From Nitrospirota bacterium (GTDB lineage: Bacteria; Nitrospirota; Nitrospiria; SBBL01; JAADHI01): a DNA stretch of 64,000 nt. The position numbers and the translations under genes were made by a program. The stretch spans positions 1 to 64,000 of the forward strand of contig JAJDBT010000016.1 in assembly GCA_029261215.1 (NCBI GenBank), given 5' to 3'. The notes under the pieces are model-generated. The model had not been told where the DNA came from and ran no database searches. It saw nothing but the letters and a program-made list of their open reading frames with translations. Below are positions 13,545 to 26,364 of the stretch, piece by piece. Each line of letters begins with the position of its first letter. Position 1 is the first letter of the stretch.

Positions 13545-13928
13545 TTACCAGTGCCAGACACGGTCGTGGTTTTCAATCAGGTCGAGCACCCCTTCGCGGT
13601 CCGTTGTTTTGACGCCTGCAATGAGCCCGGTGAGGGAAATGCCCCGTTTTACGAGGTCTTCGCCGGAAACATAAACGGCGACCCCTTTTGTCATCAAAGC
13701 CACAATATCCTTATCGATTTCTGCCGCGTGGGTTTGTTGCCATTCCCCAAACGAAACCTGTGGCGCTTGCTGGCCGGAGACGGCATAATTTACGGCATTG
13801 CCACGAAGCAAAACCGTCAGATCCGCCCCGGCACCTTTCATCGCGTGTGTGATCCACACCACCGTGTCGTCCTGTTCTTCAATCGTTGCCCGATAGGCGC
13901 TTTCGATAATATTGAGTGTTGTTGCCAT
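13545..13928 (-). CDS. DsrE-family protein (third of three), cysteine-free
   Basis: MATTLNIIESAYRATIEEQDDTVVWITHAMKGAGADLTVLLRGNAV...; DsrE-like fold pattern, ends VWHW. Confidence 0.75.
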   Translation of the reverse strand: MATTLNIIESAYRATIEEQDDTVVWITHAMKGAGADLTVLLRGNAVNYAVSGQQAPQVSFGEWQQTHAAEIDKDIVALMTKGVAVYVSGEDLVKRGISLTGLIAGVKTTDREGVLDLIENHDRVWHW

Positions 13929-13938
13929 TGTATGCTCC

Positions 13939-14355
13939 TTACTTGGTCGGAATGACGAGTGTATTGTCCGAGGCATTGGCCCAACTGACAAAATCTCCTG
14001 GAGATCCCCGCCGGACTCCCGGCACCGCTTCATTCATGCCTCGCTCGTCTACGCAAAGCCCGCAATTGATCCAATCGACCTTTGCGCCCGATTTCTCGGC
14101 ATGTTTCATCAGTTCGGTCACCCAGTCTTTCGGCAAGGGGTGGTTCCATTCTTCTTTTTCAAAACCATGTACGCTGTTGGCATGCGCCGATTGTTTTGAA
14201 AACGGAACTCCCACAGCGCCTTCATAGGCAAATACGTTAACGTTATGCCCCCGCCGGACGGCGCTGTCGATCAACCGAAGGGCCGTTGTCGTCCGCGCGT
14301 TTTCAAACGGCGCATCCATTAAACAAAAAGTCAGTGTTTTTTTTTCAGACATCAT
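13939..14355 (-). CDS. DsrE-family protein (second of three), with CxxC-type cysteine motif
   Basis: LTFCLMDAPFENARTTTALRLIDSAVRRGHNVNVFAYEGAV...VDWINCGLCVDERG. Confidence 0.85.
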   Translation of the reverse strand: MMSEKKTLTFCLMDAPFENARTTTALRLIDSAVRRGHNVNVFAYEGAVGVPFSKQSAHANSVHGFEKEEWNHPLPKDWVTELMKHAEKSGAKVDWINCGLCVDERGMNEAVPGVRRGSPGDFVSWANASDNTLVIPTK

Positions 14356-14361
14356 TTCCTC

Positions 14362-14688
14362 CTAATGCCACAAGGTTTTGACGCCATCCGCCATTTGATC
14401 AATGACGACATCAAGTTCCGCAGGGGCAACGCCGTTGACAAGGGCCGCGTCCGCAATGCCCCGTTCCTGCAGTGATAAATTATCTGCTAAAATCCGCACC
14501 CCGGCCGTGGCAAGTTTTGCGAGCGTGTTGTGTGTGGGATTTTTTCGCGCAGGCAAGACCCCATTTTGAACGAGAAACAAGGTCACTTCATTTCCGCGTT
14601 CTTTCAAACCGGAAGCAAGGTCATAAAAATAAGCCACGTCGTTCACCTCAAACGGATCACGCGACTCAATAAGTAAATAACTGGCCAT
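14362..14688 (-). CDS. DsrE-family protein (first of three), cysteine-free
   Basis: MASYLLIESRDPFEVNDVAYFYDLASGLKERGNEVTLFLVQNGVL... Confidence 0.8.
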   Translation of the reverse strand: MASYLLIESRDPFEVNDVAYFYDLASGLKERGNEVTLFLVQNGVLPARKNPTHNTLAKLATAGVRILADNLSLQERGIADAALVNGVAPAELDVVIDQMADGVKTLWH

Positions 14689-15192
14689 TCTATCCTCCAT
14701 ATTGATGATGATAAAAAATACCTGCAGTGCCTGATATTCGTTTCTCCCAATCCTCAAGTATTTGAACACGTTTTTGTAGACTGACAACCTACTTTTTTTT
14801 CACCTCTCAGTCAAGATCAAGCGACCACAACCAGCGTGTCTGTTAAGAAAAAGGGATATTTTAAAGACAGTTTCCCCTGACGTACACCTACATTTGATAT
14901 TCCGGGGTTGAACAGGGTCTCATTTTTGACAAATTCCTTATGGGCCCAGGACGACTGCCCCAGCAACTTGGCAGGATACATTCCCTGAGTGGGGCGTTTT
15001 AGCTCAAACACACTCAATCGGTGAAAAATGAAACATTGACGATGCCCCATCCTGGCCTACTACCTGAAGTACTCCTAAAAAAACCGATCCGCAAACTATT
15101 TTTAAATTCCTTCAATTCTATCTTGCTCCTAAAAAAACATGTGTTATAATCCGGGTCTCAAAAACCTCTTGGTATTTCACGGAACAGATTTT

Positions 15193-21315: not shown

Positions 21316-21414
21316 AGGCGGTCATTTTAGGGAAGGGTGGAATACATGTCAAGCCAGGGACAACAAAATGATCCGACTTGACATTTTATTTATAATCTTT
21401 ATCATACTCTTTCT

Positions 21415-21735
21415 ATGCACAGAGCCGCTCTAAAAAAGACTGCACCCATTCTTTTTATCGGGGCGTTCTATTTTGCCACCATACTTCTCGGTGCACTTTG
21501 TCCCTCCGGGGAGCAACCGACACAACACCATAAACACAAACGCGGAATGCAGCATAGTGCCTCTTGTCTTCTGGCCTGCTCCAGCATGGTGGCAAAAGAG
21601 GTCGCGCCACCCTATCTTCCTTCAATGCCGACATTACTGGGCGGACTCCTGATTGCCCTCTCCCTTTTTTTTCTTCAATTCAATGTTTCAACCATCCGGA
21701 GCCGTGCTCCGCCTTTGACCCAATCAACCGTATAA
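21415..21735 (+). CDS. Small membrane protein with His-rich segment and CxxxC motif (family member P1)
   Basis: N-terminal TM; TQHHKHKRGMQHSASCLLAC; C-terminal RAPP. Confidence 0.6.
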   Translation: MHRAALKKTAPILFIGAFYFATILLGALCPSGEQPTQHHKHKRGMQHSASCLLACSSMVAKEVAPPYLPSMPTLLGGLLIALSLFFLQFNVSTIRSRAPPLTQSTV

Positions 21736-21884
21736 ATTTTCCATTTTAACGAACATGATCGCTTTCTAATTTAAAGAAAGTCGATTGATCGCGCCTGCTG
21801 ATTGAAAAAGACTTTTATGTCTGAATGTCTTATCAAGGGGCAGGATTCTAAATTTTTCTGAACGAATTTAGGGTAAAACGGGCA

Positions 21885-22202
21885 ATGAAACCGTATTTTT
21901 GGCTTAAAAAAACCGTTTATCTCGTTGTATTTATCTACCTCTCCCTAGCCTTTTTTATGGTCATGCCAATGGAACAGCATGCCATGACACATGGGCAATC
22001 CCCCGACCATGCCAAAGAACATGGCAACCTGATCTGCGCCTGGATGTGTACGGCTTCAAGCCATGTCCATAGCATTGCGATGGCTCGGGAACAGCGCTTT
22101 ACGCCTGTTTTTGAAATCCGTATTTTCGCCATTCAGCCCTATTTTCAAAATAAACCCCTGCAAGCACTTTCGATTCGACCACCCCCTTCCGATCTTGTGT
22201 AA
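21885..22202 (+). CDS. Small membrane protein with His-rich segment and CxxxC motif (family member P2)
   Basis: N-terminal TM; MEQHAMTHGQSPDHAKEHGNLICAWMC; C-terminal RPPP. Confidence 0.65.
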   Translation: MKPYFWLKKTVYLVVFIYLSLAFFMVMPMEQHAMTHGQSPDHAKEHGNLICAWMCTASSHVHSIAMAREQRFTPVFEIRIFAIQPYFQNKPLQALSIRPPPSDLV

Positions 22203-22307
22203 TTTTCAAATCATAAAACACCTTTAATCCGAGTTGAGAGTTGAACTGATCGTTCTCTCTTCCCAATTCAAAACAGCTATTTTCATTTAAAATGATAAGG
22301 AGTTGTA

Positions 22308-23321
22308 ATGCGCAAGATGTCTTTTTTAATCAAAGAATGGATAATGATCAGTTTTTTAGCAGCCCTGGTCTTAATCACCGTACCAGCAGACGTGTGGCCG
22401 AGTTGCGGCTCGGCCAACTGCTTTCTCGTAACCGGCACACAGGATGGCATTGGTGCCCCGGGCAAAATGACATTGGATATTTCCTATCGCTACATCCCGA
22501 TGGACAAATTTCAGCGGGGAAACAGCAGCACCAATGAAGTCATCGTCCCAAAGGTCGATTTTAAAAACGGCGTGATTGTCCCAGACCATCACCGCGAAGT
22601 CCGCACCATCAATGAACTCATGCAGGTAGATGTCATTTACGGAGTGACCGAACGCTTTAGCCTTCAGTTTTCCATTCCGCTGATGAACAACCGGGCGCAT
22701 GAACATTTTGACGAAGTCGGAACGTCGGATGAATTTTTCACACGTCAAGACGGCTCGTCCGGCCTGGGAGACATTCGCCTTACCGGGCGGTACGCACTGG
22801 TGGTTTCGACCCGCCACCTTTTTGTCCTGGGAGGTGGCATCAAGCTCCCAACCGGGGAGTACAAACTGAATGACAGTCACGGGGAGATCAATGAACCCAC
22901 GATCATGCCCGGTACCGGCTCGACCGATGTACTTTTCTCCTTCTTTTACGATTATCAAATCGTTCCACACAAACTGGATACCTTCTTCTCGGGCAATTAT
23001 CAGCTCACGAGCGAAAACGACCTCGACTATCAATTTGCTGACCAAACCCATTTCAATACCGGATTGAACTATCTTCTGAGCGAAAAGGTTTCCGTCAGTG
23101 GACAATTGAATCTGCAGCTGAAACCGCATGACACATTCAAAGGTCAAAATGTTCCTTCGACAGGGGGAAAGTGGCTCTACGTGACGCCGGGCATTCAGGT
23201 TCAGGCATCGGATCATCTTGGGCTTTACACCTTTGTGCAGATTCCACTCATGCAAGATGTCAACGAGGTCAATATCGTGGCGCGTTATGCACTGGCCATC
23301 GGGGCCTCGTACAGCTTCTAA
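22308..23321 (+). CDS. Outer-membrane beta-barrel protein (transporter-like)
   Basis: Signal peptide followed by WPSCGSANCF; barrel-like strands, ends with GASYSF; AAGGAG RBS. Confidence 0.7.
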   Translation: MRKMSFLIKEWIMISFLAALVLITVPADVWPSCGSANCFLVTGTQDGIGAPGKMTLDISYRYIPMDKFQRGNSSTNEVIVPKVDFKNGVIVPDHHREVRTINELMQVDVIYGVTERFSLQFSIPLMNNRAHEHFDEVGTSDEFFTRQDGSSGLGDIRLTGRYALVVSTRHLFVLGGGIKLPTGEYKLNDSHGEINEPTIMPGTGSTDVLFSFFYDYQIVPHKLDTFFSGNYQLTSENDLDYQFADQTHFNTGLNYLLSEKVSVSGQLNLQLKPHDTFKGQNVPSTGGKWLYVTPGIQVQASDHLGLYTFVQIPLMQDVNEVNIVARYALAIGASYSF

Positions 23322-23382
23322 GCCGTGATGCCGCATTCAGTTATGGATAAAGATTATTGATAAAAGATAAAGGAGTAAAACC

Positions 23383-24765
23383 ATGTTTTTTCAAACGAAG
23401 ACAACAAAACAATGGGCAACAGTTCTTCTGGGTTTGCCGCTTGCACTTTTATTAACCCAGTGCGCCGAGCAGTATGATTCACCCGTCACAGAAACACACA
23501 ATGAAAAAGCCTATGTCGCCAGCGCCAATGGCACAATCGCCGTCATCACCCACGGAGACATCCCCAAACGCGTGAAGACGATTGAAGCCGACGGCTCAAA
23601 CGATGTCGCCGCCAGCTTCGGCCACGTCTATATCAATCGCTCAGAGAGCAACTCCGTGGCCGTAATCGACGCCAACAAGGAGGTCTTAAAGGGATCTATT
23701 TCCGTAGGAGAACGTCCGGTTCACAGCCGGGTGGTCAAAGGCGGCAACTTGCTTTTGGTGGGGAACGACGGACCGCGGGATGACACCACAACAAGCGATG
23801 ACGATATCTTAGTGGCTCAGGATGATTCGATCTCAGTCATTGATACGAATCCAAATAATACTTCCTTCATGACAGAGATTGCCCGGATTCGAGTGGGAAA
23901 CGGACATCACATCATCACCTACAGCGATGAAACACAACGGGCGGCCGTCAGCAACCTCTCCGCAGGAACCGTCTCCATCATCGATATCAACACGCTTTCG
24001 GTGATGTGTACGGTTCCGGTGGGCATTGTCCCGCACGGCATTGACTATTCCCATGTGAGCGGACAGGCCTACAACGCCAATGTGTCCGACCCGACGAACG
24101 CCGTCACAATCATCAATTTGGACGCCGCGATCACGATTCCGGCCAATCCTTACGATCAAACAGACGCCGCCTGTACGGCACTCGTTGCAGGAAGCATTGC
24201 AAAGGGAACCGGTTCCGGACAGATCCCGGTTTCCGGCTATATACAAAGCAATCATTCCGGGGCTTTTGTATTCACAGTGGGTTATGACGACGTGACTACA
24301 ACCGGTTATGTCTCCGCCATCAGGGCGTCGGACAACGTCGTGGTCTCCGTCCTGCCTCTGAGCAACTTCAAACCGGACAAGTTCGCGATAACCGAGGAGG
24401 ACAACCGGATGTATGTCAGTGGTGTCAAGGATGACGACAACGCAACAACAGTCCCCGGCACAAGCGTTGCGGTGCTTGATATTGACCCGGCCACCGGGAC
24501 GCTCACAACCCACGCCACAACGCCCTTTATTTTCGTTGGAACAGGGCATGACCATCGGGCGATTGTGCTCAGCAGTGACGACTTACGTCTCTTTGTGCCA
24601 AACTCAGGAGAGAGCCCTGGAACGGTTTCCGTAATCGACACTGCCACGCTGACCGTCCTCAATACCATCGCGGTGGCAGATGAACCCAATGCGCTGACTT
24701 ACGTCGATGCGGCAACACTCGCGCTCCCCGCAGGAACGGGAGGCAGCGGCGAACATTCCCACTGA
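23383..24765 (+). CDS. YVTN/YncE-type beta-propeller lipoprotein
   Basis: Lipobox LLTQC; repeats such as SVAVIDANKEVLKGSISVGERPVH, GTVSIIDINTLSVMCTVPVGIVPHGI. Confidence 0.8.
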   Translation: MFFQTKTTKQWATVLLGLPLALLLTQCAEQYDSPVTETHNEKAYVASANGTIAVITHGDIPKRVKTIEADGSNDVAASFGHVYINRSESNSVAVIDANKEVLKGSISVGERPVHSRVVKGGNLLLVGNDGPRDDTTTSDDDILVAQDDSISVIDTNPNNTSFMTEIARIRVGNGHHIITYSDETQRAAVSNLSAGTVSIIDINTLSVMCTVPVGIVPHGIDYSHVSGQAYNANVSDPTNAVTIINLDAAITIPANPYDQTDAACTALVAGSIAKGTGSGQIPVSGYIQSNHSGAFVFTVGYDDVTTTGYVSAIRASDNVVVSVLPLSNFKPDKFAITEEDNRMYVSGVKDDDNATTVPGTSVAVLDIDPATGTLTTHATTPFIFVGTGHDHRAIVLSSDDLRLFVPNSGESPGTVSVIDTATLTVLNTIAVADEPNALTYVDAATLALPAGTGGSGEHSH

Positions 24766-24873
24766 TTATTTGAGGGGAAGTTTTCCGGCGAACGGGAGAG
24801 TCGCTTGTCTCCCGTTCGCCCATCGCCATTTAAACAGGGGATGTGATACAAACATAAAACCACTTGAGGAAGC

Positions 24874-25404
24874 ATGAGAAAAATAAAAAGTAAGAGAACC
24901 ACTCTGATCTTGAGATTCTGTACGGGACTTGGGGTCTTTTTCCTTTTATCCGGCATGGCGGGCAAACCACCGCTCGTGGGCGGCCCGGCACCGCATTTTC
25001 AACTGCACTCCCTGAGTGGGTCTCCCGTCGGAATTGCAGATTATCAGGGAAAAGTCGTGCTGCTCACCTTTTGGGCAACATGGTGCAAACCCTGTAAACA
25101 GGAGATGCCCGAAATTCAGACGGCCTATGAAAAACTCAAAGACCAGGGTTTTGTCGTGCTGGCGCTTAATTTTGGCGAGAAAGGCCCCGTCGCTGAAAAA
25201 CTCGTCAAAGAAATGGGTCTGACTTTTCCGGTTTTACTGGATGAAGACGTTGAAGTCGCGGAGCGACATCAGGTGGTTTCCCTGCCCGTCAGTTTTTTTA
25301 TCGATCCAAACGGCATCATCAAAAAAAAAGTGATTGGCGGAACACTCACACAAGAAGAAATCACCATCATCTTTCACGAGCTTCAAGGAACAACGAAATC
25401 ATGA
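24874..25404 (+). CDS. TlpA/ResA-family thiol-disulfide oxidoreductase
   Basis: VVLLTFWATWCKPCKQEMPEIQTAYEKL; N-terminal signal anchor. Confidence 0.93.
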   Translation: MRKIKSKRTTLILRFCTGLGVFFLLSGMAGKPPLVGGPAPHFQLHSLSGSPVGIADYQGKVVLLTFWATWCKPCKQEMPEIQTAYEKLKDQGFVVLALNFGEKGPVAEKLVKEMGLTFPVLLDEDVEVAERHQVVSLPVSFFIDPNGIIKKKVIGGTLTQEEITIIFHELQGTTKS

Positions 25405-25535
25405 GATGCATCCAGCGTTGGATCTCAATAAAAGCGGAGTTAAAATCCGCCGAGTGTCTCCGATTCGCTCGTCCATTTTCACAAAGGGCCTATTTCAAAA
25501 AAAACTGAACAGATATCGGACATTTCCGGATAAGC

Positions 25536-25868
25536 GTGCATAACGTGGCTCAGAACCAAAAAATAAAAAATACCGCGATTTTCGTGATCAGCATCTACTT
25601 CTGTTTATCCGCTTTGATGACCGTGGAGGCAGGAAAGCACCTGCTTAAACACCACCGTTCATCCGCCCATCAGGGGAAAAATCGTGTTTCCTACACCTGT
25701 AACTGGATGTGCGGCGCATTAACGCCCTTACAATCGATTGAACCCTCACTCGATCAAACACGGTTACCCTTTGCGGGAAAAGCCTCGGATATCGTCCCGT
25801 CCGTACTTGGCTATTATTTCACCCCCGATCAGCATGGCCGCGCTCCACCACACCTCACTTCATATTAG
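25536..25868 (+). CDS. Small membrane protein with His-rich segment and CxxxC motif (family member P3)
   Basis: N-terminal TM; GKHLLKHHRSSAHQGKNRVSYTCNWMC; C-terminal RAPP; parallels 21885..22202. Confidence 0.65.
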   Translation: MHNVAQNQKIKNTAIFVISIYFCLSALMTVEAGKHLLKHHRSSAHQGKNRVSYTCNWMCGALTPLQSIEPSLDQTRLPFAGKASDIVPSVLGYYFTPDQHGRAPPHLTSY

Positions 25869-25929
25869 GACAATCCATTTTCGCAGGGCCCGATGGCCCA
25901 TCAACTTCCTAACCTTGAAGGAGGATATC

Positions 25930-26364
25930 GTGAATTCCGCGAGAAGTTTGATCATTTTGGAATTGTATTTAAATGTGTCTGTTCCCAAAGAAAACCCCCA
26001 TGAAGAAACCCTGACGGTGCGAGTCAAACTCGACGGCAAATTTCAACGGGAGATTTTACAGCAGATTGAAAAAACACTCTCTGAGTTGTCCGGAGTCCAT
26101 TCAGTTAATCTGACCAGTATGAGAAGTCATGCATTGATTGACGTGAATTCCAGCCAAGTACGCCCCGATGACCTCATCGCGGCGATTGAACGCATCAAGG
26201 GGGACAGTTGGCAGTGTACCGCTGATTTTAATCATGAAACCGCCAAGATTTACCATATTGAAGAAAAAGTCGGGGCGAATGTCAGTTGGGTTCGGCATCC
26301 TCAACTGAATATGCCATATGGGCTCAAGCCGGGCTCCCCTCATAAAAAGTCTGGAGTGAAATAA
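25930..26364 (+). CDS. HMA-like (ferredoxin-fold) small protein without CxxC
   Basis: GTG start preceded by GAAGGAGG; LTVRVKLDGKFQREILQQIEKTLSELSGVHSVNLTSMRSHALIDVNSSQVRPDDLIAAIERI resembles HMA/ferredoxin fold. Confidence 0.6.
   Translation: MNSARSLIILELYLNVSVPKENPHEETLTVRVKLDGKFQREILQQIEKTLSELSGVHSVNLTSMRSHALIDVNSSQVRPDDLIAAIERIKGDSWQCTADFNHETAKIYHIEEKVGANVSWVRHPQLNMPYGLKPGSPHKKSGVK

Follow-up and report, generated by a model that had tools for sequence, protein, structure and literature searches.

Small upstream open reading frames as likely nascent-chain metal sensors in a Nitrospirota gene cluster

The contig JAJDBT010000016.1 of a Nitrospirota bacterium, analysed over its first 64,000 nucleotides (the window), encodes three small His-rich CxxxC proteins on the forward strand among genes that suggest metal handling, which raises the question of whether these proteins bind metal themselves or whether their translation controls the genes behind them. 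An earlier note had correctly placed the three open reading frames (ORFs) with their C-terminal R-[AP]-P-P, and had proposed that the proteins take part in periplasmic metal capture or cuproprotein maturation. We instead consider it likely that they are cis-acting upstream ORFs (uORFs) of a metal-handling cluster, probably for copper, and work as nascent-chain sensors of the CruR/CutF type, because their position, C-terminal R-x-P-P, fixed Cys-to-R-x-P-P spacing and RNA features mark them as regulatory. CruR (BP2923) of Bordetella pertussis, a DUF2946 protein, is a copper-responsive uORF acting via CxxC, RAPP and Rho-dependent termination (PMC9426467), and its arrest has been demonstrated in vitro (PMC12992588); CutF of Rhodobacter capsulatus, also in DUF2946, combines CxxxC and a Pro-rich C-terminus with a stem-loop that covers the next Shine-Dalgarno (SD) sequence (PMC9973294). 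Our computational analysis covered anatomy, conservation, spacing, promoter position, an excess of C over G (C>G) and, at group level, pairing that locks the downstream SD together with constraint on synonymous sites. Supposed metal-binding proteins are thereby recast as likely nascent-chain metal sensors.

Anatomy and conservation of the small ORFs

As listed, uORF A, uORF B and uORF 3 (Table 1) comprised 106, 105 and 110 amino acids and shared a common plan: a hydrophobic N-terminal segment, a His cluster, CxxxC, and R-x-P-P 5 to 7 residues from the stop codon. uORF 3 probably starts at GTG 25545 (107 amino acids) rather than at the listed 25536, because 25548 is where the match to the homologous profile starts. 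The pattern C...C-(39-44 residues)-R[AGPS]PP-(0-12 residues)-stop occurred three times in the six frames of the window, precisely at these ORFs, and in none of 60 Markov-1 random windows. Alignments of homologues showed invariant His, CxxxC and R-x-P-P columns; the CxxxC is shared with CutF and the RAPP-type C-terminal motif with CruR. All three ORFs agreed with the published filter for CutF-like proteins in length (<150 amino acids), in PP in the last 15 residues and in a same-strand gene within 1 kb; for the signal peptide that the filter also asks for, a hydrophobic N-terminus was visible in sequence and alignment.

Spacing, counted in residues from the second Cys to R-x-P-P, was close to constant. 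A model built from the N-terminus through CxxxC and run on the fetched loci found 120 distinct ORFs, of which 119 ended in R[AGPS]PP, with the caveat that its training rows were picked for R-x-P-P and most loci were fetched by profiles containing that motif. In these 119 the distance was 41 residues in 93, 42 in 25 and 43 in one, while the linker itself had a median pairwise identity of about 22%; the 120th carried RGPP at 42 residues with a longer tail. When R-x-P-P occupies the catalytic centre, CxxxC would lie about 44-48 residues back, just past the exit tunnel; the common spacing offers a testable geometry.

Profiles of the two types, A and B, matched one another (hhalign probability of 96.5%). 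The type-B profile detected members in 181 of 197 class genomes (159 of the 166 of high quality), and its 38 matches in a phylum sample all fell inside the class, with none outside. If these ORFs act as proposed, control of the CruR/CutF type would extend to essentially a whole Nitrospirota class. uORF A is single copy in its genome. Among 17 strong type-A matches in the taxonomic order of the window, 15 were directly followed by type B when coordinates were compared, and the tandem A-B is therefore a conserved unit. An outer-membrane barrel gene, which follows uORF B, was present in 91 of 147 class genomes sampled, and one or two such uORFs lay within 1.5 kb upstream in 28 of 32 barrel loci examined; the pattern search over the same distance found none at the remaining four (two relatives at class level, one Nitrospina metagenome-assembled genome (MAG) and one contig edge). 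The ORF that precedes the barrel homologue of a Nitrospina MAG (L035:5361-5810) is rich in His, has Cys dispersed along it and ends in ...DPPPRFI, possibly an independent Pro-ending sensor outside the R-x-P-P pattern. The closest named record was a "Nitrospirota bacterium" MAG (L033; barrel identity of 69%), and a pattern-based contig scan using the barrel returned just three loci. Relatives carried up to six uORFs within one 19-kb cluster, and an orthologue of uORF 3 was found in L038.

Promoter, C-rich 3′ ends and Shine-Dalgarno pairing

All 13 type-A uORFs at order level had a promoter with at least 10 of 12 matches whose -10 box ended 6-10 nucleotides before the ATG, a level of agreement approached by few control ATGs (3 of 256 reached 9 of 12). 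With a promoter conserved at this distance, the first uORF is predicted to be leaderless. Back to back with the promoter of uORF A, the reverse strand carries a promoter-like TTGACA-17-TAAAAT for hemL (21324-21352).

The 3′ ends of the uORFs were rich in C and poor in G, and candidate rut regions comparable to that of CruR were recognised here by composition alone. Over the last 120 nucleotides, C minus G was +16.8% in uORFs (n = 138) and -2.5% in other genes (n = 207), with a p value of 1e-50 that is overstated as the sequences are related. A scan for intrinsic terminators between the uORFs and their targets gave no convincing site (total of 9, against 6.2 +/- 2.0 in shuffles).

A lock on the downstream SD was suggested by uORF 3, where 0.98 of the SD pairing landed in the R-x-P-P end region, and was then tested across the 74 uORFs that are followed by a clear SD. 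In free RNA, SD accessibility was 0.21 in these uORFs compared to 0.41 in control gene pairs; masking a ribosome at R-x-P-P raised it to 0.39 (gain of 0.18), compared to 0.42 (gain of 0.01) in the controls, while slid masks gained 0.03 and shuffled sequences 0.025. The result persisted on 44 sequence clusters, in which synonymous recoding of the uORF end lowered the gain from 0.19 to 0.08 (p = 3e-9), so that the RNA, and not the peptide alone, appears constrained. Pairing with the SD peaked between +6 and +21 relative to the Arg codon, that is, over the P-P codons and those that follow. CCT-CC was found at P-P in 89 of 138 uORFs and in 46 of 229 control P-P, an enrichment that is unusual because CCC/U-C pairs are reported to be selected against in E. 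coli (PMC8129111). General codon usage was rejected as its cause by the control P-P comparison. Selection for pausing alone is disfavoured, if not fully excluded, because the gain still fell by half (0.19 to 0.10) when P-P was kept and everything else recoded; it stood at 0.15 when the P-P codons alone were recoded.

We tentatively propose, at somewhat less than an even chance, that the arrest codons do a dual job across the clade: the R-x-P-P peptide would stall the ribosome, while the Pro codons, which often read CCU-CCN and so mimic an anti-Shine-Dalgarno sequence, would lock the next SD together with the codons after them, and tandem sensors, the first of them leaderless, would let metal act stepwise on the barrel operon. 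A stall site that overlaps the lock, as predicted, would be a simple, mutable model for turning arrest into gene expression.

Genes of the cluster

Profile matches agreed with the earlier note on the genes around the uORFs, namely a barrel with CGSANC, a YVTN lipoprotein, a TlpA-like thioredoxin and an HMA-like protein lacking CxxC, and the survey of relatives supported its reading of the locus as metal-related and showed that the neighbourhood is conserved. For the HMA-like gene, GTG 25930, which is preceded by AAGGAGG, is a more probable start than 25738.

Table 1. Features of the uORF-led cluster in the window
Feature	Position	Strand	Properties
uORF A, type A	21415..21735	+	CLLAC, RAPP, spacing 41; candidate arrest peptide nearest the promoter
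uORF B, type B	21885..22202	+	CAWMC, RPPP, spacing 42; tandem behind uORF A, directly before barrel
uORF 3, second type B	25545..25868 (probable start)	+	CNWMC, RAPP, spacing 42; directly before HMA-like gene
Outer-membrane barrel	22308..23321	+	PF13557, E 5e-11; CGSANC at the mature N-terminus; proposed target of uORF B
YVTN beta-propeller lipoprotein	23383..24765	+	TIGR02276, E 2.5e-18
TlpA/ResA-like thiol-disulfide oxidoreductase (thioredoxin)	24874..25404	+	PF00578, E 3e-29
HMA-like protein without CxxC	25930..26364 (probable start)	+	PF00403, E 1e-5; proposed target of uORF 3
Sigma-70-type promoter TTGACA-16-TATCAT	21378..21405	+	11/12 match; -10 box ends 9 nucleotides before uORF A ATG
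C>G bubble, candidate rut region	21590..21787	+	C 22-35%, G 12-21%
C>G bubble, candidate rut region	22090..22247	+	C 26-33%, G 9-14%
C>G bubble, candidate rut region	25784..25921	+	C 35-41%, G 13-19%
CCTCACTTCA, last codons of uORF 3	25853..25862	+	Lock 5′ side; predicted to pair with downstream SD; fold z -3.2
TGAAGGAGG, SD of HMA-like gene	25916..25924	+	Lock 3′ side; predicted to be occluded in free RNA

The AlphaFold model of the barrel (pLDDT of 82) had the FapF/COG4313 channels as its nearest fold, and the Cys pair of CGSANC was invariant among relatives. The gene next to the 120 uORFs was a barrel in 67, a count raised by the use of the barrel itself to fetch some of the loci, TlpA in 17, TonB in 10, BNR in four, HMA in two and YVTN in two. 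In relatives, A-like uORFs precede TonB-dependent receptors, the setting of CruR. The tandem unit also leads other genes, since in L087 (near G049:C1:1590437-1591166) a tandem A-B stands before a gene resembling, by eye, ApbE. BNR-repeat proteins in uORF-led clusters (L046:4226-5503 and L045:11518-12861) share a conserved GMACPCCRPML, a possible metal or thiol site.

Other neighbours were seen in relatives. ZnuA and an ABC-3 permease, both tested against Pfam, lie immediately upstream of tandem uORFs in L037:2603-4508, and sequences like them were recognised by eye at the matching place in L042:13738-15595. In at least five relatives (L045, L048, L049, L050 and L052), a SecA-like protein of about 900 amino acids (by eye, ...LIFGSKNDREIKALRP...) divergently adjoins the uORF cluster, a curious arrangement given that secA is regulated by other RAPP arrest peptides. 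Elsewhere in the window, three adjacent ORFs on the reverse strand (13545-14787) look DsrE-like by eye.

Proposed cycle, rival explanations and known systems

Arrest at R-x-P-P, copper sensing via the Cys pair and Rho coupling are carried over from the literature on related peptides, and by this analogy we infer that copper may be the ligand in the Nitrospirota organism, that metal would turn expression off and that Rho would be used at these uORFs. Transcription would begin at or beside the ATG of uORF A, and the ribosome would stall as R-x-P-P arrives at the peptidyl-transferase centre and the first Pro of P-P occupies the P site; R-x-P-P/RAPP-like peptides stall with their third residue there (PMC10987492). 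CxxxC would then stand just outside the tunnel with the His cluster before it, where copper could bind. By covering the uORF 3′ end, the stalled ribosome would keep Rho off the C-rich, G-poor stretch and also free the downstream SD that otherwise pairs with the uORF end, allowing the next gene to be expressed. Metal binding would relieve the arrest, as in CruR, upon which the lock would re-form, Rho would terminate and expression would fall. The tandem A-B would act as two gates before the barrel, with uORF 3 gating the HMA-like gene separately.

Several observations weigh against this account. Membership of DUF2946 (PF11162) was rejected on profile, as uORF A scored 17 bits (E of 0.01), below the gathering threshold of 23.7 bits, while uORF B and uORF 3 gave no match and a search of the source genome returned nothing above the cut-off; NCBIfam likewise matched nothing relevant in the small ORFs. 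CxxxC with a spacing of 41-43 differs from the CxxC and 45 residues of CruR. At 4-fold sites, C:G was 1.34 in uORFs compared to 1.07, so that the bias is weakly shared there and the C>G excess is partly driven by amino acids. All RNA results are fold predictions. At uORF 3 the SD was strongly occluded (unpaired 0.003 in free RNA), and the mask lifted it to just 0.17, as the long-range hairpin can give way to a local one; in L038, a single overlapping-frame case, folding the uORF 3-to-HMA region gave no evident lock. The uORF B-to-barrel RNA of the window showed neither lock nor gain (0.42 to 0.42); orthologues of uORF B with a lock were found in L033, L036, L041, L042 and L058.

The sign of control might be the opposite, with metal on an exported CxxxC strengthening or prolonging the pause and turning downstream genes on for detoxification or efflux. 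CutF, which has CxxxC and in which copper-dependent delay opens the SD-shielding stem-loop (PMC9973294), provides the precedent, and the predicted lock resembles it; we nevertheless find this doubtful, as TonB and TonB-dependent receptors in relatives and the rut-like bubble look like acquisition operons of the CruR kind, and the spacing would leave CxxxC at the tunnel exit, not in the periplasm, while R-x-P-P occupies the catalytic centre. Sensing of zinc or some other soft metal, by an unchanged arrest logic, seems unlikely. Cys/His sites do bind zinc, nickel and cobalt variants were noted in the CutF survey, and ZnuA with an ABC-3 permease stands upstream of the tandem in L037 (with similar sequences, by eye, in L042), but this was seen in two relatives only, and Cys-containing CutF-like proteins lie mostly beside copper genes (PMC9973294).

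A Cys pair that senses thiol-disulfide or redox state, or Sec export, rather than copper would make the TlpA-like genes the regulated response. A TlpA-like gene directly follows 17 of 120 uORFs, RAPP uORFs with conserved Cys are reported upstream of thioredoxin-domain genes (PMC12992588), and secA-like genes lie divergently beside several clusters in relatives. The invariant His and C-x-W-M-C, however, suggest a soft-metal site, HMA, TonB receptor and ZnuA genes are among the neighbours, and CruR and CutF, nearest in design among characterised systems, sense copper, which makes this option rather improbable. Very improbable, in our estimate, is the view of the earlier note that the products are small, stable periplasmic or membrane metal-binding proteins working in trans. 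It accommodates the metal-ligand residues, putative export signal and metal-gene neighbourhood, but leaves unexplained the invariant C-terminal R-x-P-P, the fixed spacing across a freely varying linker, the strict place upstream of genes and the synonymous-site constraint on SD pairing; CutF is also degraded fast after export (PMC9973294).

For the preferred reading as nascent-chain sensors, Bordetella CruR and Rhodobacter CutF already exemplify the principle, and the locus is therefore undescribed, as the earlier note had called it, in its clade and its tandem/leaderless form but not in its principle (PMC9426467, PMC9973294, PMC12992588). New here are the tandem arrangement, the predicted leaderless start and the proposed dual role of the arrest codons. 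The main text of the CruR and CutF papers does not mention a tandem or a leaderless start, and that of the CutF paper (PMC9973294) holds no Nitrospirota case; open-licence literature on leaderless arrest peptides, DUF2946 in Nitrospira and anti-SD proline codons did not describe these elements.

Like CruR, the first ORF of this metal operon has a putative export signal, a Cys pair and a C-terminal RAPP at near-fixed spacing, with a C>G bubble at the uORF 3′ end and a TonB-receptor setting among relatives. Apart from the Cys motif and its spacing, it differs from CruR in the tandem pair, in the leaderless promoter (the CruR transcript begins 45 nucleotides before its start codon), in its barrel, TlpA and HMA targets, in the predicted SD lock and in scoring below the Pfam threshold. 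With CutF it shares CxxxC and the length, PP and neighbouring-gene parts of the published filter, and the RNA structure predicted for the group and for uORF 3 would likewise shield the next gene's SD; the shield in CutF is an intergenic stem-loop, whereas here it would consist of the arrest codons and following ones, and CutF has a general Pro-rich tail in place of R-x-P-P. ApdA, ApdP and SecM (RAPP/RGPP, RQH family; PMC10987492) also carry a C-terminal RAPP-like motif in an exported uORF but monitor Sec/YidC, whereas the Cys/His conservation of the Nitrospirota uORFs suggests a metal ligand. The COG4313/FapF channels (PDB 4rl8 and 5o65) were the best fold match of the barrel, with a TM score of about 0.6-0.75, but at 13-16% identity, and the barrel is set apart from them by its CGSxxC N-terminus and metal context.

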